Notes under the pieces: generated by a model | What the model saw: the letters and a program-made list of their open reading frames with translations, nothing else | What the model was told of the DNA's origin: nothing | Database searches by the model: none | Program-made: the position numbers and the translations under genes | Origin: a virus | Virus record (IMG/VR): IMGVR_UViG_3300046007_010166 | Location: 1 to 25,237 of that record | Length of the DNA stretch: 25,237 nucleotides | Direction: 5' to 3' (one strand) | Shown: positions 2,418-25,237 of the stretch, one piece after another | Position numbering within the stretch: position 1 is the first letter of the stretch | Layout of the letters: every line of letters begins with the position of its first letter

Positions 2418-2439
2418 TTAAAAATGTTTTTATTTTTAT

Positions 2440-2449
2440 TATATATTAA
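2440..2449 (-). promoter_or_regulatory. TTAATATATA promoter-like box upstream of peptidase operon
   Basis: On the minus strand this reads TTAATATATA, 22 bases before the ATG at 2417. The same decamer precedes several other operon-leading genes here. I read it as the -10-like element of a phage (probably late) promoter; no -35 element is evident. Confidence 0.5.
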
Positions 2450-2451
2450 AA

Positions 2452-2841
2452 TTAAATTGTGATTTCATGTGAATTTATCTTATCACGTGAAACTTCTCCT
2501 ACTTTATGATGATTTTCTTTTTTGACAAATTTTGCTTTACAGTAAACAACTTTAATATTATCGAGATCCTTTGCATCACTATTATCTTTAGCAATTTGTG
2601 CAACTTTTTTAATAACATCAAGTGTAGGTATTTTATCTTTTACTTTAATAAGCATATGACATCCCTTATAACCAATTACATGTAGCCAAATATCATCAGA
2701 ATCTGCAATATGAAGAACTAAGTGGTCATTAGATTTTGCATCTCTACCACGGTAAACTAAAAATCCTTCAATTTCCATTCTTTGGAAGTTAAATTCTTTT
2801 TTCTTACTCTCATTAAACTGTGAATATTTCTTTAATCTCAT
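2452..2841 (-). CDS. Stand-alone NFACT-R (RqcH C-terminal-type) domain protein
   Basis: 129 residues from the ATG at 2841. Residues 27-66 fit the NFACT-R (DUF814) domain: GRDAKSND (32-39), an HIADSDDIWLHV segment, then GCHMLIKVK. Later VVYCKAKFVKK and HHKVGEV match the domain's second half. In bacterial RqcH and eukaryotic NEMF/Rqc2 this domain is the C-terminal part of a protein that binds peptidyl-tRNA on split large ribosomal subunits; here no NFACT-N or coiled coil is present. I chose the ATG at 2841 over an upstream in-frame ATG at 2868. The shorter form begins MRLKKYSQFNES, which fits loosely the N-terminal tag of the window, and has the ATAATATATA box 4 bases upstream, whereas the longer form starts inside the terminator stem. 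The function could be ribosome or tRNA binding; untested. Confidence 0.8.
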   Translation of the reverse strand: MRLKKYSQFNESKKKEFNFQRMEIEGFLVYRGRDAKSNDHLVLHIADSDDIWLHVIGYKGCHMLIKVKDKIPTLDVIKKVAQIAKDNSDAKDLDNIKVVYCKAKFVKKENHHKVGEVSRDKINSHEITI

Positions 2842-2845
2842 AATG

Positions 2846-2855
2846 TATATATTAT
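2846..2855 (-). promoter_or_regulatory. ATAATATATA box 4 bases before the NFACT-R gene
   Basis: Minus-strand variant of the TTAATATATA box, ending four bases before the ATG at 2841. If it is a -10 element the transcript would be leaderless or nearly so. Confidence 0.45.
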
Positions 2856-2866
2856 TTATATAAAAC

Positions 2867-2893
2867 AAAAAAGACCCAATTGGGTCTTTTTTT
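2867..2893 (-). terminator. Rho-independent terminator after the capsid gene
   Basis: Perfect inverted repeat AAAAAAGACCCAA/TTGGGTCTTTTTT. It has a GACCC/GGGTC core and flanking A and T runs, and lies 20 bases past the capsid stop codon. It would end the capsid transcript before the NFACT-R gene. Being symmetric it could also act in the other direction. Confidence 0.85.
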
Positions 2894-2912
2894 GAAATAT
2901 TTCAACTAATGA

Positions 2913-4710: not shown

Positions 4711-6876
4711 TTATAAGCTTTTGAATCTTTCCATTATTGCATTCATTTCATTACTTGACAATTTGTCTTCTTGAATTAACGCTTCGTGAGATACTAATTT
4801 CTTAGTTACAGACTCATTCTTTTTAAGATTTCTAGTTGCCCAGAAATGCTCGATTTGATTTTCAGTTTTTAATACGTCTTCTGGATATAATCTAGCTTGT
4901 GATAAAACTGATTTTTTAGAAGATTCGTTTAACTGACCCCAGATTGGCTTCATGTTTTCAGGCATTAATCTGATTACTCTTTCTTCAAGAGATTCGTTTT
5001 TTGTTGATAATGACTCAGCAATCAAAGTAAGAACTTCTTTTTGTGTAAAATAACTACTTTCGTTTATGTGTAGTTTCACGCTTTCTTGTTCTTCGTCTGA
5101 TAGTGCATAAAAGCTATCAACTTGTGATTTGTTTAAGAACTTTAAAAAGTTCAAATCACTGCTTTCAGAAACTTTACGTTTTTTAGCTTCTTCAATTAAT
5201 TTATTTATTGATTCAGAAAGTTCTGAGTCTTCTTCACCTTTAAATTCTGGTAATTCTTGACCGTCTCCTTCGAATTCTTCTTCGTCATGTTCTTCATCTT
5301 CGTGATCTTCGTGACCTTTGTGACCTGCAAATTCAGCAGCATCTCTTGCAAATTCCTCTGCATCAGCAGCAAATTTCTCAGCTTCTTCAGCAAAATCTCC
5401 GTGATCTTCATCACCTTCTAATTCTTCTTCATTTTCTTCAAAACCAGCATCTTGTAATGTAGGGAATTGAGCCTCATCACCTTCTTCAGTAGATTCGTTT
5501 AATTTAAAACCACCATTTAATCTTTCAACGATCATTCCTTGATAAGAGATAGATTTATCTAAACTTTCCGCAACATATTCCGAGTAAGCGATATTATCAT
5601 CTAAATGTTCAGCAATGTATTCAGAGTAAGCGATGTTACCTTCTACGTGTTCTGCTAAGTATTCAGAGTAAGCAATTGAGTTATCTACATTCTCAGCAAT
5701 ATATTCTGAGTAAGCGATGTTTTTGTCTAAGTTTTCAGCGATATATTCAGAGTAAGCGATATTTTTATCCAAGTTCTCTGCTAAGTATTCTGAATACTCA
5801 ATGTTTTTGTCTAAGTTTTCAGCTAAGTATTCTGAGTAAGTGATATTTTTATCTAAATTCTCAGCAATATATTCTGAATAGTTAATGTTTTTGTCTAAGT
5901 TTTCAGCTAAGTACTCAGAGTATTCAATGTTTTTGTCTAAGTTTTCAGCTAAGTACTCAGAATAGTTAATTGCTTTTTCTAAGTTTTCAGCCAAATAGTC
6001 ATTGTGTTTAGCCAATTTAGTAGTAGTGTCTTTTAATGATTTATTTTCATTAACCACCACTTGTATTTTATCAGCTAAATAATCTAAATATTTAGCAACT
6101 TGTGTGTTAGTATTATTTAATTCCTCATAATACTCTAATAGTTGTTCTAATTTCTTAGCAGGCATATTACCTTTAGAAATAGCACTTTTTACTTCGTTCT
6201 TTGTTGAAGCAATCTCTTTAACCAAATACTGTGAATAATCACTTAGTTGTTTCTTGGTTACAAATTCATCTTTGTTCATACCGAATAATTCATTTATTTT
6301 TGACTCGTCGGATAATTCATATATCCTAAAGTTATTTTTTTCAATTTGTCCTTCTGGGCAAAAACCTAATGACTCATTCAAAACTCTAACACTCATTTTC
6401 GCTGAAGCAAATCCTGGATCTGCAACAATGTCATAAGTAAAAAGTTTTTTCAATGATACTGAACCATCTGATTCTGTTATACCAGCAGCTCTTGATGATA
6501 CAAAAACTGGACATCCATCGTCAACTAATGCTTTCGCTTCTTTACCCCAGTAAGTACTTAGTAATTTTATTTCTCCAGCAACGATGTTCTTTTCAGAAAC
6601 AAACTCTGCCTTTGTAATAATGTGTGATGCTCTTGATAACGAAGTATCAAAAACATCCGGGTGATCGAATTCACCATAGACAGCACCTAGGCTGTTCATT
6701 CTTTCATTCATTTCTTGTAATGCTGGTAAAAATTTCTCAGATTGATATATCCTCTCATTACGATTCTTTACACCAAACTCAGTAAAAGTACCACCCAATA
6801 CATAGTCTTTCTGATTAGAGGAACTTTCCTTAATCAATGAACTTGTTGAATTTTCTACTATTAAAACCGGTTTCAT
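4711..6876 (-). CDS. 21: Prohead protease (gp21-like) fused to a repeat-containing scaffold
   Basis: 721 residues; T4 gp21 has about 212. Residues 1-170 are the serine protease: NRNERIY (38-44), GEFDHP with probable catalytic H72, and VFVSSRA with probable catalytic Ser at 127/128, matching gp21 NRNKRLYP, GELNHP and VSSRG. From about 205 the protein is helical. Residues 305-444 are ten perfect-length 14-residue repeats (YSEY[LI]AENLDKNI type). Residues 455-555 are strongly acidic with His, and a further helical domain follows. T4 has separate protease (gp21) and scaffold (gp22) genes; here they appear fused. Possible self-processing sites of [LI]-x-E type occur after E8 (LIVE-N), after E168 (VLNE-S) and in most repeats. 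The protein would form the inner core of the prohead and digest it after assembly. Confidence 0.88.
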   Translation of the reverse strand: MKPVLIVENSTSSLIKESSSNQKDYVLGGTFTEFGVKNRNERIYQSEKFLPALQEMNERMNSLGAVYGEFDHPDVFDTSLSRASHIITKAEFVSEKNIVAGEIKLLSTYWGKEAKALVDDGCPVFVSSRAAGITESDGSVSLKKLFTYDIVADPGFASAKMSVRVLNESLGFCPEGQIEKNNFRIYELSDESKINELFGMNKDEFVTKKQLSDYSQYLVKEIASTKNEVKSAISKGNMPAKKLEQLLEYYEELNNTNTQVAKYLDYLADKIQVVVNENKSLKDTTTKLAKHNDYLAENLEKAINYSEYLAENLDKNIEYSEYLAENLDKNINYSEYIAENLDKNITYSEYLAENLDKNIEYSEYLAENLDKNIAYSEYIAENLDKNIAYSEYIAENVDNSIAYSEYLAEHVEGNIAYSEYIAEHLDDNIAYSEYVAESLDKSISYQGMIVERLNGGFKLNESTEEGDEAQFPTLQDAGFEENEEELEGDEDHGDFAEEAEKFAADAEEFARDAAEFAGHKGHEDHEDEEHDEEEFEGDGQELPEFKGEEDSELSESINKLIEEAKKRKVSESSDLNFLKFLNKSQVDSFYALSDEEQESVKLHINESSYFTQKEVLTLIAESLSTKNESLEERVIRLMPENMKPIWGQLNESSKKSVLSQARLYPEDVLKTENQIEHFWATRNLKKNESVTKKLVSHEALIQEDKLSSNEMNAIMERFKSL
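5545..5964 (-). repeat. Ten tandem 42-bp (14-residue) coding repeats
   Basis: Ten in-frame units encode YSEYLAENLDKNIE and variants, followed by a degenerate unit (YQGMIVERLNG) and preceded by another (HNDYLAENLEKAIN). Codons vary synonymously between units, so the protein sequence is what is conserved. Seven units have [LI]AEN, two have [LI]AEH and one has VAES. Fourteen residues equal two heptads, so a continuous helix or coiled coil is likely. Confidence 0.95.
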
Positions 6877-7011: not shown

Positions 7012-7062
7012 TTTATAAAAATCTTGGAGGAAAAAGAGTATATTTAATAAATACTTAAAAAA

Positions 7063-7470
7063 ATGCGGTTTTTTATGATCCTATCAAGAGAGATAAATGT
7101 AAAAATCACTGAGTCAAATTACAACTATTATGATGATTTAGGATATGATGTATATATAAGTGAAGAAATTATAATTCCAGTTGAATTACTACCGAAGGGA
7201 TCACATTACAAAATTAAGTGTAGATGTGACAGTTGTGGAATTGAAAAAGAAGTAATTTATAAGAACTATTTAAAATATGGTAATAATTGGGGTGACTATT
7301 ATTGTAGAAAATGTTCTGAAACAAAAAGAAAAGAAACATTAAGAAAAAATTTCGGAGTAGATTATCCGATACAGAATGAAAAAGTTTTGCAGAAAATGAA
7401 GAAAACACTGGTGGAGAAGTATGGAGTAGATAACATTTCTAAAAACAAAAAAAAATTAAATAATGAATAA
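7063..7470 (+). CDS. Zinc-finger DNA-binding protein, probable remnant of a homing endonuclease
   Basis: 135 residues. Cysteines C55/C58 and C81/C84 form a CxxC...CxxC zinc-binding pair (KCRCDSCG, YYCRKCSE). Behind them come two repeats of the kind K[RK]-x-T-L-x-[KE]-[NK]-[FY]-GVD-x-x-[IS] (about 88-108 and 111-130). Such zinc-finger plus KYGV-repeat modules are common in phage-encoded homing-type endonucleases, where they are followed by a nuclease domain. No nuclease domain follows: the frame stops at 7470, eight bases into the RNase R-like gene. The protein is therefore probably a truncated mobile gene, or a DNA-binding protein derived from one. The start could instead be the ATG five codons in (MILSREINV). 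Confidence 0.6.
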   Translation: MRFFMILSREINVKITESNYNYYDDLGYDVYISEEIIIPVELLPKGSHYKIKCRCDSCGIEKEVIYKNYLKYGNNWGDYYCRKCSETKRKETLRKNFGVDYPIQNEKVLQKMKKTLVEKYGVDNISKNKKKLNNE

Positions 7471-9346
7471 AATTAAAGAAGATAGTATCTACGAAGGTTC
7501 TATCGATTTCGCAAACAGCGGAAATGCCTCAATAAATATCTTAGATAAAAATATCTTTATATTTAAAAGAAACACCCTCAACTCACTTAACGGTGATAAA
7601 GTAAAAGTGAAAATAATCGCTAAGAACAATAAGCTAGAAGCGGAAGTTCTTGAAGTTCTTGAAAGATTTAGAACTCAATTTGTAGGTAAAGTACAAATAA
7701 ACAAAGAAAATAAAAGACTTACCTTTGTAGTACCAGACAGTCAAAAAATTGCAGTCGACTTTTATATAAAAGGAGAACACGATGCATTACAAGACCAAAA
7801 AGTTCTTGTCGAACTAATCGACTGGGAACCAGGAACAAAATCACCTAAAGCAAAAATAGTAGAGATACTTGGTAGTTCAGGTGAAAATAATGCAGAAATG
7901 AACTCAATTATGTATGAGTACGGCTTACCAAACAACTTTCCTTTAATGGTAGAAGCCGAAGCGGAATTGATAGACTTCACAATTCCAGAATCAGAAATCG
8001 AAAAAAGACGAGATTTAAGAAATATCACAACATTTACAATTGATCCAGTCGACGCCAAAGATTTTGACGACGCACTTTCGGTTAATATACTCGATGATAA
8101 TACAGTTGAAGTAGGTATTCATATCGCAGACGTTTCACACTATATTAAAGAAGGTGGAATAATCGATGAAGAAGCTATTAAAAGAGCAACATCCGTTTAC
8201 TTAGTTGATAGATGTGTACCAATGTTACCAGAAAGATTAAGTAATGGAGTATGTTCATTAAGACCTAATGAAGATAAACTTTGTTTCTCTGTTATTGTTA
8301 AACTAAATAATGACGGACAAATACTTAATAAATGGTTTGGAAAAACTATTATACATTCAGATAGAAGATACTCTTATGAAGAAGCTCAAGAAATAATCGA
8401 AGGTAAAGACGGTGATTTCAAAACTGAAATACTTTTATTAGATTCGATTGCTAAGAAAATGAGAAAACAAAGAATAAATGATGGTTCTATCGAAATGGGT
8501 GGAATTGAAGTAAGATTTCAATTAGATCCAACTACTAAGAAACCAACAGGTGTTTATTTTAAAACTCAAAAAGATGCAAATAAACTAATTGAAGAGTATA
8601 TGTTACTTGCAAATAAATTAGTTGCGAAACTTCTTTATGATGCTAAGTATCACAATGTTTATAGAGTACACAATAGTCCTAATCTTGAAAAGTTGGAAGC
8701 ACTTTCTCTAATATGTAAAAACTTTGGTTATAGTTTAGACTTAACATCAGATACTACTAATTTGAAAAAATCTATAAACCAATTAGTTGCTGATATAAAA
8801 GATCAACCAGAAGAAAATATGATTGAAACTTTAATCACAAGATGTATGTCTAAGGCCACCTATACAATAGTAAATTCCGGACACTATGGATTAGGATTTA
8901 CTCACTATTCTCACTTTACTTCACCAATTAGAAGATATCCGGATTTAATAACTCATAGAGTTTTAATGGATTTCTTAAATAAGAAATCAAATGGTAGTCC
9001 TCAAAAAATTGAAGGTATGGCAAAATGGTGTTCAGAGAGAGAAATCTTAGCAGCAAAAGCTCAAAGAGATTCTATTAAATATAAACAGATTGAATTCTTA
9101 GAAGATAAAGTCGGACAAGTATTTGATGGAATTATATCAGGAGTAACTGATTGGGGAATGTATGTTGAACTTATCGAAAGTAAATGTGAAGGTATGGTTA
9201 GATATAATGGCAATCATAGTGTTGACACAGAAAACTATACAGTTAATTTAAAATCCGGTGGATCAATAAGATTAGGTGATGAAGTAAAAGTAACCGTTAA
9301 ATCAGTTGATCTAGACAGAAAACAAATAGACTTTGAATTATTTTAA
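7463..9346 (+). CDS. rnr: RNase R/RNase II family 3'-5' exoribonuclease
   Basis: 627 residues (E. coli RNase R 813, RNase II 644). The N-terminal 150 residues resemble OB/cold-shock domains. The RNB catalytic domain follows, with TIDPVDAKDFDDALSV near residue 190-206 (the Asp cluster that binds Mg), GIHIADVSHYI, VYLVDRCVPMLPERLSNG and, near 476-493, FTHYSHFTSPIRRYPD, the signature of active RNB enzymes. A C-terminal S1 domain begins near 549 (GQVFDGIISGVTDWGMYVEL). All expected acidic residues appear intact. The enzyme should degrade RNA processively in the cytoplasm. It overlaps the previous gene by 8 bases and the next by 1 base (TAATG), forming an operon. RNB enzymes are unusual in phages, so a role in host or phage mRNA turnover during infection is plausible. 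Confidence 0.93.
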   Translation: MNKIKEDSIYEGSIDFANSGNASINILDKNIFIFKRNTLNSLNGDKVKVKIIAKNNKLEAEVLEVLERFRTQFVGKVQINKENKRLTFVVPDSQKIAVDFYIKGEHDALQDQKVLVELIDWEPGTKSPKAKIVEILGSSGENNAEMNSIMYEYGLPNNFPLMVEAEAELIDFTIPESEIEKRRDLRNITTFTIDPVDAKDFDDALSVNILDDNTVEVGIHIADVSHYIKEGGIIDEEAIKRATSVYLVDRCVPMLPERLSNGVCSLRPNEDKLCFSVIVKLNNDGQILNKWFGKTIIHSDRRYSYEEAQEIIEGKDGDFKTEILLLDSIAKKMRKQRINDGSIEMGGIEVRFQLDPTTKKPTGVYFKTQKDANKLIEEYMLLANKLVAKLLYDAKYHNVYRVHNSPNLEKLEALSLICKNFGYSLDLTSDTTNLKKSINQLVADIKDQPEENMIETLITRCMSKATYTIVNSGHYGLGFTHYSHFTSPIRRYPDLITHRVLMDFLNKKSNGSPQKIEGMAKWCSEREILAAKAQRDSIKYKQIEFLEDKVGQVFDGIISGVTDWGMYVELIESKCEGMVRYNGNHSVDTENYTVNLKSGGSIRLGDEVKVTVKSVDLDRKQIDFELF

Positions 9347-9765
9347 TGGACTATATATTTGATGTTATATTAGCAGATGATTTAGAATTTGATGATTATA
9401 ATTTAGCACTTTCTAGTTATCCAACTTGGAAATCTGTATATCGTGAGATAAAATTAAATCTTCTACTAGAACAAGGTAAAAAAATAGAGTTTGATATTGA
9501 TGATATTCAGAAATATATTACGCTAGATGATCAACATAGTCATCAAGTATCTTTGCAAAAAGTATGTTGTTCTATAACCGGGATGACATTTATACTAAAT
9601 AATAATAGTATTGAAAAACTTATCTTAAAATCTAAAATACTTGATACAAAATGTGGTAAAATAATTAAATCAATTATTGATACTGGTATAGAAATTAAAG
9701 TAAGTCAATTTCTATACGAAAAGACTTTAAACTTTATAATAGAAGCACCAAAAAATGCTGCATAA
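9346..9765 (+). CDS. Unknown protein, translationally coupled to RNase R-like gene
   Basis: 139 residues. Its ATG overlaps the stop of the exoribonuclease gene (TAATG), so the two are co-translated. No family is certain. The region 62-130 has the layout of gp21/S78-like prohead proteases: DDQHSHQVSLQKVCCSIT, then KILDTKCGKIIKSIIDTG, then IKVSQF where proteases have VSSRG. The serine is not at the expected place, so if it is related it is not an active protease. This resemblance is a pattern seen by eye and may be coincidence. A hairpin terminator directly follows the stop codon. Confidence 0.72.
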   Translation: MDYIFDVILADDLEFDDYNLALSSYPTWKSVYREIKLNLLLEQGKKIEFDIDDIQKYITLDDQHSHQVSLQKVCCSITGMTFILNNNSIEKLILKSKILDTKCGKIIKSIIDTGIEIKVSQFLYEKTLNFIIEAPKNAA

Positions 9766-9794
9766 AAAAATCCTTTCAAATGAAAGGATTTTTT
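9765..9794. terminator. Bidirectional terminator between convergent operons
   Basis: Stem AAAAAATCCTTTCA / TGAAAGGATTTTTT with a two-base AA loop. It lies immediately after the stop of the 9346 gene on the plus strand and 4 bases past the portal stop on the minus strand, so it can serve both. Confidence 0.88.
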
Positions 9795-9798
9795 ATTA

Positions 9799-11553
9799 TT
9801 AAAACTCAAACTCTGAACCACCAGGTGCTTCTGGAGCAGGAGGTTCAGGTGCCGCTTGAGGAGCGGCTTGACCACCACCTTCCGGAGCAGCTTGACCACC
9901 ACCTTCCGGAGCAGCTTGACCACCACCTTCTGGAGGTGCACCACCTTCTGCAGGCATTCCAGCACCACCTTCTGATGGAGCACCTGGCTCACCAGTAGCA
10001 CCGGCCGCAGCGTTCATTGCATCTTTATCCCAGTATTTTTGATTTTCTGCTTTTTCTTCAGGAGTTAATTTGAAAATGTTATCCATAATCCATTCAATAT
10101 GGAAGTAAGGCTTCTCACCGTTCATTACACCAAGTAAAGTACCTACAATACCAGATTTCTTTTCTAAGTTATTTAATTTTTTCCATTCTTCAAATACTTG
10201 ATTTGAGAAGAATGTTATATCGACACCATTTGTAAAGAACTCATCCTCTATTAATTCAGGGAACTCAATCAACATTTGCAATCTCAATGGTTTAACAATC
10301 AATTCTTTAAAGTTTGCTCTTAATCTACTAATAAAATTATGAAACTTAATCTCATCTCTTGTCATCTCTCCTGCATCAGTAATCAAGTTACCACCACCAT
10401 TCTCACCTTCAAATCTTGACATTGGAATTTTAGAAGCTCTTTTTAAAGCCTTAAAAAACCAATCTAACATTGAATCATCATTTAAGTTATGTCCTTGTGG
10501 AGAAACTAATTCCATATTTGGTGTTCCACCATCACCATCAGGGAACCAAACTTGTTTGTTGTAAGGCAAGTGTTTAGAACCATTGATCGTCATTGTACCC
10601 AATGATTCATCCCATTCTACTTCTTCAGAATAATCATGTATCAATTGCCCTATTTGTTCCTCTGCTCTTTGTCTTGACATACCTTTAATTGGAATAGTAA
10701 ACTTTTGATAAACAGTTGCATTGATAATGTTAAACATTATTCTTGTTTGTTGTAAGATTTTTAATTGGTTATATGGTTTAATTAAACCCTCTATATATGA
10801 TGTTTCTGAAAACTCATTTTGAGTTGAATAAGAAATATAAACCAATTGAGAATCTAAGAAGATTCTTCTTAGTTGTGGATCTTCAGGGAACTGAATCCAT
10901 AAGTGACCAATTGCTGGCTCATAAGCAGGAACTACAGTTTCAGGTCTAATTCTATTAAATCCAATAATATTTTTCTTTTTATCATCATAAATAATCTCTA
11001 ATGCCAAATATCCGTCAATTAGGAAATCTTTCATCATATTCCAAGCAGTGATGTTATCCGCAAATCCAAACTTATTATAAAGTTTCTCAAAATACTCTTG
11101 ATACTTCTCTTGTACTTCTTGTGAATAAGACGTTGGAAGTGCTGTAGGAGAACAGAAGTCTTTCTCATCGTTATACACTATACATTCATCTGCAATCGTG
11201 CTTATAAAGTCTCTAATTTCATCCTTTACAGAATACTCTCTTAAAATTCTTCTTTTATCTGCGTAAGCTTTATCTAAATAAGGAATTGATTTTCTGTTTA
11301 ATACTGATGCAACGGCCCTTTGGGAGAAGAAGTCGTACATCGAATTTCCTTTAGCCGCGTATGGATCTTCATTGATTCCAATACCTACTTGATTCCTCAC
11401 AATCATGTCATCAAAATTCATTCCGTACGATGATAAGTTTCTTAAAATCCTACTAAACAAACCTTTATTCTCAACTCCAGATGAATTTACCATCGCAAAG
11501 TTTGATCCAACGTTATTTTGATTTTCTTGAGAGAAGTTATTATATGATGCCAT
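9799..11553 (-). CDS. 20: Portal vertex protein, T4 gp20-like
   Basis: 584 residues (T4 gp20 has 524). The central part matches the T4-type portal: YQKFTIPIKGMSRQRAEEQI, then PDGDGGTPNMELVSPQGHNLN, then WFFKALKRASKIPMSRF and DAGEMTRDEIKFHNFI. These parallel gp20's MPRAKAEQHM, ADNTGNMEDIRWF, ALYMALRVPLSRI and SITRDELTFAKFI. The protein forms the dodecameric DNA entry channel at one capsid vertex and nucleates prohead assembly. The C-terminal 65 residues are unusual: Gly-Pro-Ala-Gln-Glu rich with three PEGGGQAA units, presumably flexible. The start is 14 bases inside the end of the HNH gene, so the portal appears to be transcribed with that gene and the small HTH gene from the box at 12374-12383. 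Confidence 0.92.
   Translation of the reverse strand: MASYNNFSQENQNNVGSNFAMVNSSGVENKGLFSRILRNLSSYGMNFDDMIVRNQVGIGINEDPYAAKGNSMYDFFSQRAVASVLNRKSIPYLDKAYADKRRILREYSVKDEIRDFISTIADECIVYNDEKDFCSPTALPTSYSQEVQEKYQEYFEKLYNKFGFADNITAWNMMKDFLIDGYLALEIIYDDKKKNIIGFNRIRPETVVPAYEPAIGHLWIQFPEDPQLRRIFLDSQLVYISYSTQNEFSETSYIEGLIKPYNQLKILQQTRIMFNIINATVYQKFTIPIKGMSRQRAEEQIGQLIHDYSEEVEWDESLGTMTINGSKHLPYNKQVWFPDGDGGTPNMELVSPQGHNLNDDSMLDWFFKALKRASKIPMSRFEGENGGGNLITDAGEMTRDEIKFHNFISRLRANFKELIVKPLRLQMLIEFPELIEDEFFTNGVDITFFSNQVFEEWKKLNNLEKKSGIVGTLLGVMNGEKPYFHIEWIMDNIFKLTPEEKAENQKYWDKDAMNAAAGATGEPGAPSEGGAGMPAEGGAPPEGGGQAAPEGGGQAAPEGGGQAAPQAAPEPPAPEAPGGSEFEF
9867..9938 (-). repeat. Three 24-bp coding repeats in the portal C-terminus
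   Basis: Two identical 24-base units (cttgaccaccaccttccggagcag on the plus strand) and a third diverged copy encode the PEGGGQAA repeats. The stretch is visibly more G+C rich than the surrounding sequence. Confidence 0.9.
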
Positions 11554-17496: not shown

Positions 17497-18288
17497 ATGA
17501 AGTACTTAAAAATATTTGAAGATTTTAACAATGATTTTCCTGATGTATTTAATGGAACATTAGTAAGAGGAGTTAAAATTGATAAAGATGAATATATCGA
17601 TGATCCTAAACTACGTACAGTAAGTTCTGGTAACTCAATTGATGAAGATTACATTGAATTTATAAATAATTATACTAACTTGGGAATTCCACATCCTTTA
17701 AAATCAGTACATATGTATTTTAGACCCAATCCGGATAGTTCGATTGCTTGGTATGGAACAGCATTTGATATTATTCCTAAAGAAGGTGCTATTTTTGGAT
17801 TTAATAGAGAGTTAAGAAATGGTGGATTGGGAAGTACTTGGTTCTCTCCAGAAAGAACAGCAAAAGATTTTTTAGGTAAAAAAGTTGAAAAATTTCCAGA
17901 TTACTATGAAGATAAAGATAGATTCATGGAAGAAATTACTAAATACCAACAAATGTTGATTGATGGTGGTGTAATCGGAACACTAACTTATGATGAACTA
18001 CTTAAAATGTCTAAAGAAGAAGGAGAAACATTACAAGTTTGGACAGAATCTCCTTGTCATCATAAAAAACATATAAAAGTAAAAGATCCTAAAGAGTCAT
18101 ATAAAAGTGAACCTATACTAACTGATGATGATTTTATAGAATTAGGTATTGATAATAATGGTAGAAGTGAATTTTACAAACAATACGGGAAAGAAATAAA
18201 TAGAACCGATCTTATTATACCACTTGGACGTAGAAGAAGATTGGCATTAGACTTATTAAAAAAATGGAAAGAGAATGAATTACATTAA
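17497..18288 (+). CDS. Tagged protein, possibly ADP-ribosyltransferase-like
   Basis: 263 residues. It starts with the shared tag MKYLKIFEDF. Beyond it, TLVRGV (R24 in the LxRG position of ADP-ribosyltransferases) and, much later, GSTWFSPERTAKDF (112-125), placed like the S-T-S/T-W-S strand of that fold, hint at an ART-type enzyme; a candidate catalytic Glu is E184 in VWTESP. This is motif-level inference only and the Glu is uncertain. T4's Alt is also a capsid-packaged ART with an N-terminal targeting peptide, which makes the comparison attractive. The C-terminus is basic (GRRRRLALDLLKKWK). The end overlaps the next tagged gene by 14 bases. Alternative: a phage-specific family of unknown function. 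Confidence 0.8.
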   Translation: MKYLKIFEDFNNDFPDVFNGTLVRGVKIDKDEYIDDPKLRTVSSGNSIDEDYIEFINNYTNLGIPHPLKSVHMYFRPNPDSSIAWYGTAFDIIPKEGAIFGFNRELRNGGLGSTWFSPERTAKDFLGKKVEKFPDYYEDKDRFMEEITKYQQMLIDGGVIGTLTYDELLKMSKEEGETLQVWTESPCHHKKHIKVKDPKESYKSEPILTDDDFIELGIDNNGRSEFYKQYGKEINRTDLIIPLGRRRRLALDLLKKWKENELH

Positions 18289-18829
18289 ATTATTTGAAGA
18301 CTTTACATTCTCTGATTTATACGATAAGAATAAATGGGTTGAACTTTCTATGGAAGATAGAAAAAAACTTAAAAAAGAGATATGGGAGATTGTTGATCTA
18401 GCATATAAACCACTTGGTGGTCATGTTAGAATATCAAGTCCTGATGCAGTAGTAAATGATCCAGACTTAACTTTTTGGACTGCGGTTGATATAGATAAAG
18501 ATCCTAATGCAGATGTTGTTATATTTTCAAGAGAATCTCACGGACATAAAATTTCTGGTTGGGGACATGATGGAACAAAAGAAGCTAGAAAAGAATTAAT
18601 GAAACAATTGATTATCCTATTACATAAAGAAGGATTTTGGATTGAAGTTTCAGGAAGACCAGCCGAGATACTTATAGGTGCAGATTGTAAATATTGTGAT
18701 AAACAAAAAGTAAGTAAAATTTTTCCACAATCTAAAATAAATTGGATTGGTGATGGTCTTTATACAAGAACATTACCGGATGGTAATGAAACAGAAGAAG
18801 AATACTTAGTTGGTCGTCCAAAAGTATAA
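18275..18829 (+). CDS. Tagged protein of a conserved phage family, perhaps GNAT-like
   Basis: 184 residues. It begins MNYIKLFEDF, the shared tag. The body has AYKPLGGHVRI, WTAVDIDKDPNADVVIF, GWGHDGTKEARKELMKQLI and IEVSGRPAEIL, followed by INWIGDGLYTRTL and a final VGRPK. I recall proteins with this succession (GxDGS, EVSG, IxW.GDGxYxR, GxPK) in other T4-like phages, some with similar tags. The first half looks like an acetyltransferase-type α/β fold, but I cannot confirm activity. Overlap with the upstream gene indicates co-translation. There is a 47-base gap to the clamp loader. Confidence 0.8.
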   Translation: MNYIKLFEDFTFSDLYDKNKWVELSMEDRKKLKKEIWEIVDLAYKPLGGHVRISSPDAVVNDPDLTFWTAVDIDKDPNADVVIFSRESHGHKISGWGHDGTKEARKELMKQLIILLHKEGFWIEVSGRPAEILIGADCKYCDKQKVSKIFPQSKINWIGDGLYTRTLPDGNETEEEYLVGRPKV

Positions 18830-18876: not shown

Positions 18877-19848
18877 ATGTCAGTAAATAAATTATTATTA
18901 TGGGAAAAGTGGCGTCCGAAAACTATCGACGACATTATATTACTTCCAAGAATTAGAAAAGAATTAGAAAGTGGTGTAAACCAACACTATATCTTCCACG
19001 GTCACTACGGAACCGGTAAAACTAGTTTAGCTAGAATACTAATCGGTAGATACTCAAAAGAAACTCCTTACTTAGAATTGAATTGTTCAATGGATACCTC
19101 AATTGATGTTCTTAGAACAGAAATTGATAACTTTTGTAAGTTTACTCCAATGATGGATACTAATTCTGATATTAAGTATGTGTTCTTAGATGAGTTTGAG
19201 AGAGTTTCTGGGAACTTCCAAGACGCATTTAAAGCTTTTATAGAAAGATATAACAGAAATGTTCGTTTTATCATTACAACGAACCATATAAACAAAATAT
19301 CTGATGGACTAAAATCAAGAATTAAACAAATCGGATTTGATTGTCAAGGAGTAGAAGAAGAAAAATATCTTAAACAAGAAATTTATAAAAAGATTATCAA
19401 TGAGATTCTTCCTAAAGAAGAAGCTGAAATACCAAAAGAAGATTTAATAAACATTATTACTAAAAAGTTTCCAGACTTTCGATCAGTATTAGTTGAAGTA
19501 CAAAGTTATTTAGAAACAGGTTCTATAAGTGATGGAACAGGTAATGTTTCTGCTAAAGTAAAGTTAGAACTTTATAATACTTTATATGAAGATTTAGACT
19601 TTGAGAAAACTTATCACTTTCTAATGTCAAACTTCGGAGCGGAGAAAATTGATGTTATGATTAAATTATTAGGGAAACCTTTTATTGATTGGTGTATTGT
19701 AGATAAAAAAGAAAGTGTCAATAAATTATTTGAAACTGCTTATGTAATTGCAGATTATAGTTCTAAGTTAGAAACTGCAACTGATCCACTTATATTAGGA
19801 ATTACAATTATAGGAAAATTTAGAGATATATTAAAAAACCCAGTTTAA
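18877..19848 (+). CDS. 44: Sliding clamp loader large subunit, T4 gp44-like AAA+ ATPase
   Basis: 323 residues (T4 gp44 319). WEKWRPKTIDDII is the usual start of RFC/gp44 proteins. Walker A is GHYGTGKTS (about 43-51), Walker B is YVFLDEFER (about 105-113), sensor 1 is ITTNH, and the arginine-finger segment is LKSRIKQI. The remaining C-terminal helices make the collar domain. The protein would load the phage sliding clamp onto DNA for replication and, as in T4, for late transcription with the gp55-type sigma. The small subunit (gp62) is not in the window. A hairpin terminator overlaps the stop codon. Confidence 0.92.
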   Translation: MSVNKLLLWEKWRPKTIDDIILLPRIRKELESGVNQHYIFHGHYGTGKTSLARILIGRYSKETPYLELNCSMDTSIDVLRTEIDNFCKFTPMMDTNSDIKYVFLDEFERVSGNFQDAFKAFIERYNRNVRFIITTNHINKISDGLKSRIKQIGFDCQGVEEEKYLKQEIYKKIINEILPKEEAEIPKEDLINIITKKFPDFRSVLVEVQSYLETGSISDGTGNVSAKVKLELYNTLYEDLDFEKTYHFLMSNFGAEKIDVMIKLLGKPFIDWCIVDKKESVNKLFETAYVIADYSSKLETATDPLILGITIIGKFRDILKNPV

Positions 19849-19864: not shown

Positions 19865-20635
19865 TTATATTTTATTTTGAATCTCTTTGGCTTTGGCATA
19901 TGTCTTTTTTAGAAGTTCTGAACCATCTTCATCCTTTAAATACTCTTGAAATATTTTATCAAACTCTACTTTATGGTCTGGATATTTTGATGCAGTATTT
20001 ACCATTATATCCAACATCAACATTTGACCAAATAATTTTGATCCATTATTTCCTTTTGAATCTTTCTGATAACTATTTGCTAACTTCATATATAGGTCTT
20101 TCCAAAGTTTTCCCTTTTCTCTGGATGAAGAAAAACGTGCTTGATCAAGTAATAGACTTTTAATCATTATTGAACTATCATCATAGTCATCTACGTCTTT
20201 GTCATGAAATTGATCTATGATGGAATCTAATGATTTTCTATACTCAGGATCTTGAGATTTACTTTTATAAAGTTCTATTGTTCCTATCAACATAGATTTT
20301 TTTTGTAACTTAATTGCTTTCTTATAAGATTCATCGAATCCATATTTCTTTTGATATTCATCTATAATATCAATTGCCTTTTTATCTAGATCCGTATGTT
20401 GGATAAGGTCCCCTTCATAAGTTGAGATTATAAGACTAATCTTTTCTTTTAAATCTATTTTAGTATCATTTAACTTGACAAGTACAGATTTCTCATCATC
20501 AGACTTTGGTCTGTTCGTCATACTTTGTTTTACTCCACACTTAGTACAAAATTTTGATTTTAAATCTAATTTGGTACCACACTTAGTACAAAACTTTTGA
20601 TTCTCAAAAACTTGAAAATGTTTAATATATTTCAT
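19865..20635 (-). CDS. Tagged zinc-ribbon protein of unknown function
   Basis: 256 residues. It begins MKYIKHFQVFENQ (shared tag), immediately followed by a zinc ribbon, FCTKCGTKLDLKSKFCTKCG (C16, C19, C30, C33), then a Ser/Asp-rich linker and a helical body of about 200 residues (e.g. KAIDIIDEYQKKYGFDESYK, KLFGQMLMLDIMVNTASKYP). No family is recognised for the body. Zinc ribbons of this type usually bind nucleic acid or protein partners. It is downstream of the 20650 gene on the same strand with 14 bases between, so likely the second gene of a two-gene unit. Confidence 0.78.
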   Translation of the reverse strand: MKYIKHFQVFENQKFCTKCGTKLDLKSKFCTKCGVKQSMTNRPKSDDEKSVLVKLNDTKIDLKEKISLIISTYEGDLIQHTDLDKKAIDIIDEYQKKYGFDESYKKAIKLQKKSMLIGTIELYKSKSQDPEYRKSLDSIIDQFHDKDVDDYDDSSIMIKSLLLDQARFSSSREKGKLWKDLYMKLANSYQKDSKGNNGSKLFGQMLMLDIMVNTASKYPDHKVEFDKIFQEYLKDEDGSELLKKTYAKAKEIQNKI

Positions 20636-20649
20636 CGTATTATTATTTT

Positions 20650-21009
20650 TTATTGAATTTCATTTACTCTTATTGGATTCATAAAGGATGGTCTCTCACC
20701 ATTTTTGGTAGTTCCTTTTATAGTAACTTCTTGTCCGTCAAATTCAGTCAAATCCCAAACCATTAAATCACCAGATAATACTGAAGTACCATCTATAGTT
20801 TTATTCATACTTCTAATTTTAATAACTGGGGTTTTTGATGAACCATCTTGTATTTCTAACTTACCACTTACTTCAAAACTATCATCATTGAATTGGTCTT
20901 CTACTTCAGTACCACGGCCAAACTTAGAACTAATACTAGAACGAGTTTTATCTACTTCAGATCTAACATCATCTAAAATACCTTCATTAAATCTTTTTAA
21001 ATATTTCAT
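20650..21009 (-). CDS. Small tagged protein of unknown function
   Basis: 119 residues. It starts MKYLKRFNEGILDD (shared tag; E9 followed by G would fit a prohead protease-type site). Residues 12-40 are polar and helical; the rest has alternating β-type segments (FEVSGKLEIQDG, PVIKIRSMN, LSGDLMVWDL, QEVTIKGT), suggesting a small β-barrel. Family unknown. It leads a minus-strand unit with the zinc-ribbon gene; an ATAATATATA box is at 21037-21046. Confidence 0.75.
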   Translation of the reverse strand: MKYLKRFNEGILDDVRSEVDKTRSSISSKFGRGTEVEDQFNDDSFEVSGKLEIQDGSSKTPVIKIRSMNKTIDGTSVLSGDLMVWDLTEFDGQEVTIKGTTKNGERPSFMNPIRVNEIQ

Positions 21010-21095: not shown

Positions 21096-21473
21096 ATGGC
21101 AAATTTCAACTTCATAGATTTCTATATCTGTTACCCAGGACATCCAATGTTTAGAAATGCTGAACTTATTGAAGACGATGTAGTAAAGGTTATCGTTCAA
21201 AAATATGAAATGATTATTTTTACCAACAAAGGTGAAGTTTTAGGAGAACCAAACTTTGGTGCAGATTTAACTTTATTACTACATGAAACAAGATTATCGG
21301 CAGAATCTATTGAAGGTGACATAAGAGCACAGATAGCAGATTATATACCAGAAATTGATCAAATAGGATATGAATTATCTGTAGAATTTTTTGATGATCC
21401 AGAAAGACACCAAGAGTATATGGTCATTAATTTCACAATTGCAGACTATCAAGTTTATGCAACTGTTAGCTAA
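21096..21473 (+). CDS. 25: Baseplate wedge protein, T4 gp25-like (GPW/gp25 family)
   Basis: 125 residues, close to T4 gp25 (132). DVVKVIVQKYEMIIFTNKGE followed by VLGEPNFGADLTLLL matches the family core, in which a conserved loop (here GEPNFG) precedes the LxxLLxE helix. The second half, IRAQIADYIPEIDQIGYELS and a final β-hairpin, also fits. In contractile tails this protein joins the sheath's first ring to the baseplate wedge and helps trigger contraction. It is a single plus-strand gene; its last 8 bases overlap the end of the SET-domain gene on the other strand. Confidence 0.85.
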   Translation: MANFNFIDFYICYPGHPMFRNAELIEDDVVKVIVQKYEMIIFTNKGEVLGEPNFGADLTLLLHETRLSAESIEGDIRAQIADYIPEIDQIGYELSVEFFDDPERHQEYMVINFTIADYQVYATVS

Positions 21474-21915
21474 TTCTGTAAGAATTATTTTGCCAATAGT
21501 TTTCACCATACTCAACAAATATTTCCTCACCAGCTTCTATATCTCTAGTTGCAACAAGTACAACATCATCATCTTCCATTGAAATGATACAATTATTTTT
21601 AAATCCAGTATCAGATCCTTCCGCATCATTTGCATACTTAGCAAAACAATCAGTTTGTTTACAATCTAATATATCACCATTTGGTAAATTCATAAAGTAA
21701 TCATCATCGCCTGATTCAGTTCTTGATTTTACTTCTTCATCTGAAAGTATTTCTCCTTTAAATACCGAAATAACTTCATCTTTCTCAATATCAATAGCAG
21801 TGAATAAACCTCTTCCAGAATTAGGTATCTGTGAAGTTTCTACATATAAATAATCGGATTCATCAGAATCAATTCTATCAAAATCAAAATTTTCAAAAGT
21901 TTTTAAGTATCTCAT
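21466..21915 (-). CDS. Tagged SET-domain protein (putative lysine methyltransferase)
   Basis: 149 residues. The N-terminal tag MRYLKTFENF is followed by a compact SET domain: SGRGLFTAIDIEKDEVISVF (33-52) is the N-SET strand and AdoMet-side loop, KYANDAEG with KNNC (93-109) stands in the place of the N-H-[SA]-C-x-P-N motif, and VLVATRDIEAGEEIFVEYGE with NYW (119-141) is the classic C-terminal segment with the catalytic Tyr region. There is no pre-SET or post-SET zinc cluster, so this is a minimal SET protein. SET enzymes methylate protein lysines, usually histones; some bacteria carry them too. The target here is unknown. Because of the tag I infer that it may travel in the capsid. A TTAATATATA box lies 4 bases upstream. 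Confidence 0.88.
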   Translation of the reverse strand: MRYLKTFENFDFDRIDSDESDYLYVETSQIPNSGRGLFTAIDIEKDEVISVFKGEILSDEEVKSRTESGDDDYFMNLPNGDILDCKQTDCFAKYANDAEGSDTGFKNNCIISMEDDDVVLVATRDIEAGEEIFVEYGENYWQNNSYRIS

Positions 21916-21977: not shown

Positions 21978-22595
21978 TTATTTTATAGGACAGAATGACG
22001 CAGAGTATATGTAATCTTTATTCCTTTTAACATTAACACCCATTGACAATCCACATACCTCAACATCAAGGAGACATTCATCTGAACTACCTCCACAAAT
22101 AGTAACATCTTTACCTTTAAGTTTAAGAAAAATATCATAAAGCTTTTTACTCATATGGTGCCACTGATGATTGTTGGCTATATAAACAATTATAGTTCCC
22201 TCTGTGGTAGTGAAGTAATCACCTCTCTTTAAAGATTTATCTTTCTCTTTTTGTTTAATATCATTATAAACTTTATCATCTAATATATTCTTATAAAAAT
22301 CTGCATCAACATCATAATTATATCGTTTTTCTATTAAATCAACTTGATTATTAAATTTATATAAATCATCTTTATTCTCAATATCTGGATTATCATCATA
22401 TAAATAGTCTTTATCTGGATTTTTACCATCAACATGATTATCAAAAATTTGATAAACCTTATCAAATTTTAGACAATACTTATTTAATTCTTTCAAATAA
22501 TTATCAGTAAAAAATTTCTTAAAAGACTTTTGAACATCAACGATTATCAATGTTTGTTTATCTTGAAAATTATCAAATATTTTTAAATATCTCAT
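21978..22595 (-). CDS. Tagged isochorismatase/nicotinamidase-fold cysteine hydrolase
   Basis: 205 residues. After the tag MRYLKIFDNF comes TLIIVDVQKSF, the first strand of isochorismatase-fold hydrolases with catalytic D20. K90 (LIEKRYNYDVDADF) matches the conserved Lys, and C174 in ICGGSSDECLLDVEVCGLSM matches the nucleophilic Cys. GVNVKRNKDYIYSA follows as in the family. The D-K-C triad appears complete. Members hydrolyse nicotinamide, isochorismate or other amides; the substrate cannot be told from sequence alone. The start overlaps the stop of the 22595 gene by one base (TAATG), so it is co-translated. If the 17497 protein is an ADP-ribosyltransferase, removal of released nicotinamide would be a logical pairing, but that is speculation. 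Confidence 0.82.
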   Translation of the reverse strand: MRYLKIFDNFQDKQTLIIVDVQKSFKKFFTDNYLKELNKYCLKFDKVYQIFDNHVDGKNPDKDYLYDDNPDIENKDDLYKFNNQVDLIEKRYNYDVDADFYKNILDDKVYNDIKQKEKDKSLKRGDYFTTTEGTIIVYIANNHQWHHMSKKLYDIFLKLKGKDVTICGGSSDECLLDVEVCGLSMGVNVKRNKDYIYSASFCPIK

Positions 22596-24385
22596 TATTC
22601 TTCAGTATCAGCTTCCGCTAATTGTCCTTGTTTTCTTTTAATAACGTTTATCATAACTGTGATACCATTATTTATATTTCCAAAGTAATTTCTTTTATCT
22701 ACAAGAGCTCTATATAAATAACTCGCATCATTATAATAACTAGTTGGTCTCATTCTATCAAAGAAATTACTTAAACTACTTAAACCAGTTCTCTCTGACC
22801 TAAATAAGTTTCTTAATGAATTTATTTCCTGTTGTAAGAACTCAACATCTGCCAGTGTTTCAACAGAAATAGAAGAGATATAACGATTTATTTCCAAAGA
22901 TAATCTATCTAGATTAATTAAAACTTTAAGTTCCTGTTCTTTCCACTCTTCTGGAGACTCATCTTCAATTTTATTTCTAATCCCTTTAAGAATTTTATTG
23001 GTGTGTTCGTTTGTTTTAATAGACCAATCTAAAGTATCTTTATACTTTTCATTAATAAACCGAACATCACCTTTGAAATCACTATTACTTTTTAAATCTA
23101 CCAAAGCAGTAGGAGTAATTCCTTCTTCTAACGATTTAGCATCTTCTCTTTCTGCACTTTTAATCTTTTTAATTACTTTAAAAATAGTATTTGCAATGTT
23201 TGCTAAACCACCACTAATTGTATCACTTGCTGATTGATTTAAGAAATAAACGGCATTTCTACCCAATAATCTTGCAGCCATTCTATTAAATTTAGAAATA
23301 TCATCTAATTCTCCTTTTAATTTAAAAGCTTGTGCAATTTTATCAAAATATCTTTTAATATTTGCTTTCTTAATTTCATCATTAGATAAAAGTGCAGTAG
23401 CACCCGACTTCATCTCACCTCTGTTTGAAATAATTTCAGATTTTTTTCTTTCAGGAGAAAAATTCATTAATTTATTAAAATCTAATATGATTGCAAAGTT
23501 TGCGTCTTTTACACTAGAATTTATTTGAACTGGTCTAATACGGAAATTACCCACATCAAATGAGGTATTATATCCATAAGGATCTAAACCACCTGCATTT
23601 GTCCTTGGTTTTAATAAACTGATATTATTAACTCTGGATTGACCCATTTGCCAAAATTTACCTGCTATTTGATTCCAACCAGTAGTTTCTCTAGGATAGT
23701 TATTATAATAACCCGCAGTATTTTGTAATGCAAACGTTTTACTTCCTGCCCAAGTTTGAGCTTTCATAACATAACTAACAACTTGTGGATATAACTCATT
23801 TCTCCAACCAGTATTATTGACTAAGTCTAACGCAATAATATCACCTGTTTCAAGCTCATTTATACGAGACTTTGGAACTCTTCTAACAACATCATAATCA
23901 TCAATATTTGGTGAAAATGTGGCAGTATTTGCAGCAGAGGTTTCTCTATAAACACCATCCACTGCAGTAGTAGTAATAAATTTACCTTCTGAGTCAAACC
24001 AAAACTTAATCATCGATAAATTAGATTTCTTAGGTTTGATTCCAGTACCTTCACAAGTACCACAATCAACAACTCTAAATCCTCTACCCCAAGGTCTTCT
24101 TACCTTACCTTTATCACATCTTTCACCAGCAATAAACTCACCAACTGAATCACAAGGCTCGTCTTCAACAACAACATTGTTAAATCTTAACGCTCTGTTA
24201 AAAGGGAGATATGTAAATAAATCATCACCCAATTTAGATTCAGGTATGTCAAATCGTTTACATATTAATTTTAGTGTATCTAAAAATGTTTTTTTATCAG
24301 CTTTTGATTTAATATGTTTTAAAGTTGCATTTAATGTTCTTGAATCAAATGCTTCAAATAATTTTATATATTTTAAATTTTTCAT
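22595..24385 (-). CDS. Large tagged protein of unknown function with Cys cluster
   Basis: 596 residues. The tag is slightly internal: MKNLKYIKLFEAFDSRTL. Residues 15-65 (KHIKSKADKKTFLDTLKLIC, then DDLFTYLPFNRAL) look like a helical domain I associate with a conserved T4-like phage family of unknown function. A cysteine cluster follows (C78, C90, C108, C111), including CGTCEGTG, like half of a DnaJ zinc centre. Residues 125-330 look β-rich, with WFDSEGKFITTTAVDG and GDIIALDLVN. The C-terminal 250 residues are helical. It overlaps the upstream gene by 4 bases (ATGA) and the downstream by 1. It could be a virion-internal protein; function unknown. Confidence 0.82.
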   Translation of the reverse strand: MKNLKYIKLFEAFDSRTLNATLKHIKSKADKKTFLDTLKLICKRFDIPESKLGDDLFTYLPFNRALRFNNVVVEDEPCDSVGEFIAGERCDKGKVRRPWGRGFRVVDCGTCEGTGIKPKKSNLSMIKFWFDSEGKFITTTAVDGVYRETSAANTATFSPNIDDYDVVRRVPKSRINELETGDIIALDLVNNTGWRNELYPQVVSYVMKAQTWAGSKTFALQNTAGYYNNYPRETTGWNQIAGKFWQMGQSRVNNISLLKPRTNAGGLDPYGYNTSFDVGNFRIRPVQINSSVKDANFAIILDFNKLMNFSPERKKSEIISNRGEMKSGATALLSNDEIKKANIKRYFDKIAQAFKLKGELDDISKFNRMAARLLGRNAVYFLNQSASDTISGGLANIANTIFKVIKKIKSAEREDAKSLEEGITPTALVDLKSNSDFKGDVRFINEKYKDTLDWSIKTNEHTNKILKGIRNKIEDESPEEWKEQELKVLINLDRLSLEINRYISSISVETLADVEFLQQEINSLRNLFRSERTGLSSLSNFFDRMRPTSYYNDASYLYRALVDKRNYFGNINNGITVMINVIKRKQGQLAEADTEE

Positions 24386-25237
24386 ATTATTGGACCTACA
24401 ATTTCTATTTTTACTCCTTTAGATCTTAAAGATCCTAAAATTGACTTAGATTCTTTTGTTGCTAGATCACCAGAAATTACTAATTTCTTTAAATTTTCTG
24501 GTACAATTGTTTTTAAATCTTCTACCGAATCTAAAGTATATATTACCTGTAATTCTTCCAATGCTTTAAATTCAGAGAAGTCAAATGAACCAACATTATC
24601 ACAACTGATAATTTGTAATTTCGTAATATTTGGATTTGATTGATTAATATCTTGTAAAACACCATTAGATAATTTACACTTATCAAATGCAATACTTGTT
24701 GTTTTGATTCTATCAAAGTCTTTTAAAGTATGTATTTCAATGAATTTAAACTTAATCCAATCTAATGTGATATTTAAAGTTAGTAAACTATCTGGTATTT
24801 CAGTAGTTTCAATAATCAATTCTTTAATTCTTGCATTTGGATCAACTCTAACATTTTTCCAATTACCAATTTGACTTAAATATAATGTCTTAATGTTTTT
24901 ACCAATCATTCTTCCGGTAGTTGTACTTAATCTATCTTGATATGGTGCTGTTAAATTATCATCAGTGTCAAGATCTGGAGTATATAAATATCTATCATTT
25001 CTATCCGCATTCATAATGTTACCACTATACTTTGTGACAATTTCTTCAAATTTATCCTGCATTCTATCTGGATAAGCTCTATCAAAATATAATTTTGTGG
25101 CTTTATGAATAGCATAAGGTTTATTTGTTTCTTTAAAAATATTTCCACTTAGAGTAAGTTGAACCTCACTGTCTACAGATACTACAGTCGTAGAAGTCTT
25201 GTCTATATTATTATAAACAATATCACCTGTTTTTTCT
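24382..25237 (-). CDS. Partial protein with β-rich N-terminal part and leucine-rich-repeat-like C-terminus
   Basis: The frame is open from the right edge to the stop at 24382, giving at least 284 residues; the true start is outside the window, so the internal ATG at 25062 should not be taken as the start. The visible N-terminal part (GDIVYNNIDKTSTTVVSVDS, then EVQLTLSGNIFKETNKPYAI) resembles phage structural β-domains. The C-terminal 180 residues have regularly spaced Leu/Ile strands (IKTLYLSQIGNWKNV, IKELIIETTEIPDSL, ITKLQIISCDNV, LEELQVIYTLDSVEDL, LKKLVISGDL), the pattern of a leucine-rich-repeat solenoid. That would suit a protein-binding role, for instance in the virion. It overlaps the 22595 gene by four bases. 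Confidence 0.75.
   Translation of the reverse strand, partial: EKTGDIVYNNIDKTSTTVVSVDSEVQLTLSGNIFKETNKPYAIHKATKLYFDRAYPDRMQDKFEEIVTKYSGNIMNADRNDRYLYTPDLDTDDNLTAPYQDRLSTTTGRMIGKNIKTLYLSQIGNWKNVRVDPNARIKELIIETTEIPDSLLTLNITLDWIKFKFIEIHTLKDFDRIKTTSIAFDKCKLSNGVLQDINQSNPNITKLQIISCDNVGSFDFSEFKALEELQVIYTLDSVEDLKTIVPENLKKLVISGDLATKESKSILGSLRSKGVKIEIVGPII

Follow-up and report, generated by a model that had tools for sequence, protein, structure and literature searches.

A SET-domain protein of a Mahaphage-type genome carries a candidate capsid-targeting peptide, suggesting a lysine methyltransferase as packaged cargo

In bacteriophage T4, ten N-terminal residues, the capsid-targeting sequence (CTS), suffice for targeting to the head, and the prohead protease gp21 cuts after L/I-x-E (PMC9026906, PMC10229621). 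The internal proteins of the T-even phages are anti-restriction agents (PMC3012670), and T4 Alt is an ADP-ribosyltransferase that is packaged and injected (PMC9026906). In the T4 genome the pattern MKx[YF][KQ]xF is found four times, each time where a gene begins: ipI, ipII, ipIII and the hypothetical 61.1. The start of gp61.1 (MKTFKEF, 19110-19130) is identical to that of ipI, and gp61.1 may thus be targeted to the capsid as well. Phage SET proteins are nothing new: the one of Stenotrophomonas phage Moby is already annotated and other huge phages possess them as well. In the literature collection searched, nothing was found on SET enzymes that phages inject as cargo or on the tag described here in Bacteroidetes phages.

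The window, i.e., the whole stretch of DNA that was analyzed, comprises the 25,237 bases of a virus record. Its DNA matches the uncultured phages LR745206 (634,780 bp), LR756502 (642,428 bp) and LR756504 (636,363 bp), and it is a piece of a roughly 640-kb Mahaphage-type genome; for genomes of the Mahaphage clade larger than 634 kb Bacteroidetes are the predicted hosts (PMC7162821). The SET gene is the last in an apparent minus-strand operon, in which start and stop codons overlap among the first three genes, followed by a gap of 62 bases and the SET gene, and in which the last three genes are all tagged. In the following list, as below, a slash within a sequence marks the end of a tag or a candidate cleavage point.

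24382-25062, minus strand: first gene of the apparent operon, untagged; its stop overlaps the start of 22595-24385
22595-24385, minus strand: tagged 596-aa protein (MKNLKYIKLFEAF..., a looser form of the tag); start and stop codons overlap those of its neighbors
21978-22595, minus strand: predicted tagged isochorismatase/nicotinamidase-like cysteine hydrolase, MRYLKIFDNF... (structure, synteny)
21466-21915, minus strand: predicted SET-domain protein-lysine methyltransferase gene, 149 aa (Pfam, structure, dN/dS)
21880-21915, minus strand: N-terminal tag MRYLKTFENFDF, residues 1-12, candidate capsid-targeting sequence (21/21 phage, 0/81 cellular; residues 1-9 disordered)
21505-21816, minus strand: SET domain, residues 34-137 (full-length PF00856 match)
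21808-21816, minus strand: GxG motif Gly34-Arg-Gly36, AdoMet side (G36 in 90/90, G34 in 89/90)
21616-21639, minus strand: KYANDAEG with the AdoMet-motif Asn96 (N96 and D97 in 90/90; aligned with RFANHS of EZH2)
21505-21522, minus strand: IFVEYG with the predicted catalytic Tyr136 (90/90; invariant in 22 diverse viral SETs)

An earlier note on this DNA had claimed a SET domain, complete in outline, in a phage, and the profile search bears this out. The product of 21466-21915, which begins MRYLKTFENFDFDRIDSDESDYLYV, matches Pfam SET PF00856 with an E-value of 3.1e-14 and 53.7 bits, above the cut-off of 22.4 bits, and as positions 1-105 of the 105 in the profile are aligned, the domain is complete. 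The motifs quoted in that note, GRGLF, KYAND...NNC, RDIEAGEEIFVEYG and NYW, are found in the ORF. The structure prediction that it proposed returned a SET fold: the AlphaFold2 model (pLDDT 80.8, residues 1-9 disordered) superimposes on MLL3 with Z 13.5 and an rmsd of 2.0 over 119 residues, and reaches Z 13.4 with SETD8 and Z 13.1 with SETD7. In the alignment to EZH2, N96 falls on the NH-motif Asn and Y136 on the tyrosine of FFDY. The AdoMet-binding and catalytic Tyr residues, the loss of which would have spoken against the assignment, are retained, Asn96 and Tyr136 in 90 of 90 phage and Bacteroidota family members, as are G36, D97, Y140 and W141; G36, N96, E131, Y136 and G137 are among the columns that do not vary across 22 diverse viral SETs. 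Phage copies with 62-97% identity are present in IMG/VR and in LR756502, and close pairs of copies have dN/dS values of 0.05-0.12, distant pairs values of 0.12-0.26. Given these IMG/VR relatives and the dN/dS range of 0.05-0.26, the ORF is not a chance one; the gene is real, constrained by strong purifying selection and has the catalytic residues present. From these motifs, the protein is predicted to act as an AdoMet-dependent protein-lysine methyltransferase. Searches of PHROGs and NCBIfam with the protein returned no informative model, and no NCBIfam model reached its cut-off for the family.

To place the family, bacterial and archaeal genomes were scanned with the conserved C-terminal half of the SET protein (a 59-residue query), resulting in 163 confirmed matches; 80 of these were retained, and Bacteroidota account for nearly all of them. 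Among cellular sequences, the closest ones known are SET genes on Bacteroidota chromosomes, with identities of up to about 60%, or up to 65% over the 59-residue query, and many of the matches sit on large chromosomal contigs. Close members were found in 4/199 Flavobacteriaceae species (~2%) and in 3/296 sampled species of Bacteroidota; eight further species have more distant matches. This shows that the Bacteroidota SET genes are patchy and rare and do not belong to a core. In the tree a branch with support 100/99 parts 11 phage rows from 79 cellular rows, and the tree does not tell whether phage or bacterium was the donor. The gene neighborhoods of the cellular SETs hold no conserved partner that would point to a substrate, the best being a MenD-like gene on the opposite strand in 13/79. 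The earlier note had described SET proteins as chiefly eukaryotic chromatin enzymes, with a few bacterial and giant-virus ones; its SET assignment in a phage stands, and an origin from eukaryotes or giant viruses was rejected, the closest sequences being Bacteroidota chromosomal genes and the eukaryotic SETs in the PDB being 20-29% identical.

The comparison with the cellular proteins also delimits the tag. Cellular proteins read ...IDAPESD/YLYI... and phage proteins MRYLKTFENFDFDRIDSDESD/YLYV...; the alignment of the two groups reaches back to about nine residues before YLY, and the bacterial starts lie a few residues before IDAPESD-YLYI. As the alignment stops there, the tag is an extra in the phage proteins. 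A tag of the MRYLKTFENF type, defined by one fixed pattern, is present in 21/21 phage copies of the family (several of them near-identical) and in 0/81 cellular sequences; L222 and L223, the only other phage sequences, form a distant branch with a different N-terminus. The claim of the earlier note that the SET protein carries a candidate packaging tag also holds: close forms of the peptide start five other ORFs of the window, and 119 ORFs of the 642-kb relative carry it. In the window, two more ORFs, the NFACT-R protein and the 22595-24385 protein, show looser forms. In addition to the operon genes given above, the tagged ORFs of the window comprise:

17497-18288, plus strand: tagged ORF MKYLKIFEDFNND
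18275-18829, plus strand: tagged ORF MNYIKLFEDFTF, loose form
19865-20635, minus strand: tagged zinc-ribbon ORF MKYIKHFQVFENQ
20650-21009, minus strand: tagged ORF MKYLKRFNEG

The NFACT-R domain protein is encoded at 2452-2868 of the window, and its second Met gives the tag-like start MRLKKYSQFNE/SKKKEF; NFACT-R is a domain of the ribosome rescue factors RqcH/NEMF.

For a genome-wide count, 638 of the 642 kb of LR756502 were read as non-overlapping ORFs and the pattern M[KR][HYFN][LIVM][K..]x[FY] was sought near their starts. It was found in 119/997 ORFs (~12%) compared to 1.9 expected from internal Met residues, and the first 100 kb hold 62 of these 119. The DNA form of the tag gave 69, 58 and 33 hits in LR756502, LR745206 and LR756504, compared to 1, 0 and 2 for a reversed-pattern control, and zero hits in the 735-kb LR756501 and in phage Moby. 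The tag is thus N-terminal and common to otherwise unrelated proteins; a scan of 94 tagged proteins revealed few known domains (SET, GNAT acetyltransferases, HNH, lysozyme, PQ-loop). The tagged set of LR756502 comprises a T4-type lysozyme (Phage_lysozyme, E 4e-23) and a GNAT acetyltransferase, and a D-I-L-x-D-L-x-D motif marks a large paralogous family in it (21 tagged vs 3/878 untagged ORFs). The tag is conserved as amino acids and not as bases. A nucleotide-level signal for translation start or recombination is disfavored by the comparison of the window with L007 (pS 0.80, pN 0) and by the mixed codons at fixed residues across the 119 tags.

Moreover, the tags tend to end like a prohead-protease site. 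Hydrophobic-x-Glu at positions 9-14 is found in 87/119 tags compared to 141/715 untagged ORFs of LR756502, and shuffling of the tags yields a mean of 54 and a maximum of 71; the Glu is mostly followed by Ser or Asn. The tag of the SET copy itself reads TFE/N, and most SET copies read TFE/N or TFE/S, and since this is no clean hydrophobic-x-E, cleavage may not occur in them. The tag follows the register M-K-x-hydrophobic-K/Q-x-F, matching T4 ipI, ipII and ipIII. Head genes are encoded in the window itself:

2913-4622, minus strand: major head protein, MCP (PHROG 138, E 8e-28)
4494-4520, minus strand: putative prohead-protease site YAEFHSINE/N in the MCP
4711-6876, minus strand: head maturation protease with C-terminal 14-residue YSEYLAENLDKNI repeats (PHROG 207, E 8e-29)

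In full, the putative MCP cleavage site reads YAEFHSINE/NAYVNASNVAGMG. LR756502 ORF 80294-80539 reads MKHLKNYKSFNE/DATANASTAGMGG, i.e., the tag is fused to the MCP arm exactly at INE/N. It is one of two small LR756502 ORFs with fragments of the MCP N-arm, the other being 542908-543423, and in the first the tag replaces the propeptide. The MCP, the protease and the portal of the window are all untagged, and the head proteases of the relatives give weak Peptidase_S77 matches. It is supported that the tag of the SET protein behaves like a capsid-targeting sequence.

Tags and SET proteins also occur apart from each other. LR756501 (735 kb) has no tag system and encodes an untagged SET of another type at 692231-692524; LR756504 has the tag system, yet its own unrelated SET (605185-605493) is untagged. 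This shows that phage SETs are not always cargo. LR745206 has no SET, and together with the untagged, different SET of LR756504 this indicates that the tagged enzyme is dispensable. Other N-terminal peptides were observed in other viral contigs. The SET N-terminus MEKLIKNILNE of G001/G002 and MDFKSFEEILES of the G006 SET resemble other tags by look. The 136-kb viral contig L114 (G006) encodes two SET genes, one of which lies two genes from the MCP and starts MDFKSFEEILES after an internal Met; the same contig shows at 1524-3517 and 6022-6543 the tags MKTVKTFEQFINE/A and MKKIKTFETFLNE/S, which are close to the T4 form. In L118 (G005), a run of ORFs at 7016-9806 starting MKKIIKLNENDIENLVKKIIKED near the head protease represents a different repeated N-terminal tag.

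On the basis of this analysis, we consider it probable that a host-type lysine methyltransferase is packaged as cargo in the way of the T4 internal proteins and then injected into the next Bacteroidota cell. The phage enzyme belongs to a small SET family whose other members are scattered over the chromosomes of Bacteroidota, and its N-terminus would be the phage's own capsid-targeting peptide. As in the T4 internal-protein pathway, the tag would bring the methyltransferase to the core of the prohead, and it may be cut off by the prohead protease, trimming being the least certain step as the SET tags mostly end with TFE followed by N or S. The methyltransferase would remain inside the head together with the DNA, pass with it into the next Bacteroidota cell and methylate lysines there early in infection, most likely those of host proteins, since the enzyme is of a host-type family. 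Against packaging as cargo it has to be held that some tagged ORFs, namely those for the T4-type lysozyme, the HNH nuclease and the PQ-loop protein, are not obvious injected cargo, and that the tagged enzyme is dispensable, as the relatives without it show. In a wider form, some Mahaphages might load about 100 tagged proteins into their heads and inject them with the DNA, including a host-type lysine methyltransferase that marks host proteins in the first minutes and would be the first to be injected by a phage; this wider proposal is tentative and we judge it somewhat short of probable. If right, protein-lysine methylation, to which phage biology has paid little attention, serves phages as an injected weapon that is made by adding a packaging tag to an enzyme of the kind hosts carry. 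Furthermore, in a 642-kb phage the tag marks about 12% of the genes, almost none of them with a known function, as candidates for injected proteins, and the list of tagged proteins bears directly on why such phages have very large genomes.

Alternatively, the tag might be an N-terminal address or assembly peptide for another place, such as a replication compartment, a membrane or a condensate, and the SET protein might act only once it is made during infection. The share of about 12% of genes is indeed high for a set of internal proteins, and lysozyme and HNH proteins are among the tagged ones. However, the enrichment of hydrophobic-x-E at the tag ends, the fusion of the tag at the MCP site in LR756502 ORF 80294, the register shared with the CTSs of the T4 internal proteins and the presence of a T4-type head protease in the same genome all speak for the head as the destination, making another address rather unlikely.

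The protein might also be packaged to modify virion or core proteins, e.g., the lysine-bearing repeats of the protease or scaffold, and thereby serve head assembly instead of host takeover. The protease at 4711-6876 carries about a dozen repeats of 14 residues each, most of them with a lysine; these repeats may constitute the core or scaffold and the receptor of the tag, the receptor role being a conjecture. Targeting to the core would place the SET protein beside core proteins. However, the same head genes are present without this SET in LR745206, which has none, and in LR756504, which has only an unrelated and untagged one, and the enzyme is of host-type origin, and a virion target therefore appears quite improbable.

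Another possibility concerns the gene next to the SET gene, as the SET protein and the adjoining tagged nicotinamidase-like hydrolase might form a counter-defense pair against host metabolites or defense proteins. In VIA-align the product of 21978-22595 matches PncA with Z 10.8, the top 36 rows being all isochorismatase-like and the next standing at 6.1; plain Foldseek returned weak matches only. Asp20 of DVQ and Cys174 are invariant in eight sequences. The hydrolase adjoins the SET gene in the family relatives that were fetched, with the order reversed in the L020-L024 clade, and this retention of the pair, along with the known anti-restriction activity of T-even internal proteins (PMC3012670), fits a joint function. 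However, LR745206 has the tagged hydrolase and no SET, and no link to defense was found for the pair, leaving this explanation highly doubtful. As a further observation on the neighborhood, the relatives L038 (37828-38109), L120 (3921-4205), L020 (3288-3569) and L221 (1074-1352) share a conserved small protein that resembles the ClpS adaptor by eye and is encoded at a distance of a few genes from SET.

Finally, a catalytically dead SET fold that serves as a binding module is barely credible: the His of the NH motif is replaced by Asp in 90/90 family members, the cellular ones included, but none of 90 sequences departs from Tyr136, Asn96, G36 and the YW end, and LegAS4, in which this position also varies and which was crystallized with a histone H3 peptide (8swi), likewise lacks the His (N-F), so that the Asp is not regarded as disqualifying.

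Among the described systems, packaged cargo as proposed here resembles the T4 internal proteins IPI, IPII and IPIII, which share the seven-residue register, the hydrophobic-x-Glu end seen in most tags of LR756502, a T4-type head protease and varied cargo behind one tag. The T4 internal proteins, however, are a handful of genes, whereas here more than 100 ORFs are tagged, the core of the tag reads M[KR][HY][LI]Kx[FY] and a SET enzyme is among the predicted cargo. T4 Alt shows that a phage head can deliver an enzyme that modifies proteins; its chemistry and fold are unlike those of SET. On the side of the enzyme, Legionella LegAS4/AnkI, SETD7, MLL and EZH2 resemble the phage protein in fold and catalytic motifs but differ in having only 20-29% identity to it, extra domains and eukaryotic targets. 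A minimal viral SET domain is also present in chlorovirus vSET, which belongs to a different SET subfamily. The SETs of Moby, LR756501 and LR756504 likewise consist of a minimal viral SET domain as seen here but belong to different subfamilies, and those of LR756501 and LR756504, unlike the family described here, carry no such tag. The SET proteins of Bacteroidota (Flavobacterium, Winogradskyella, Chitinophaga etc.) belong to the same family and share all active-site residues with the phage protein; they differ in lacking the tag (0/81) and in being cellular enzymes rather than phage cargo.
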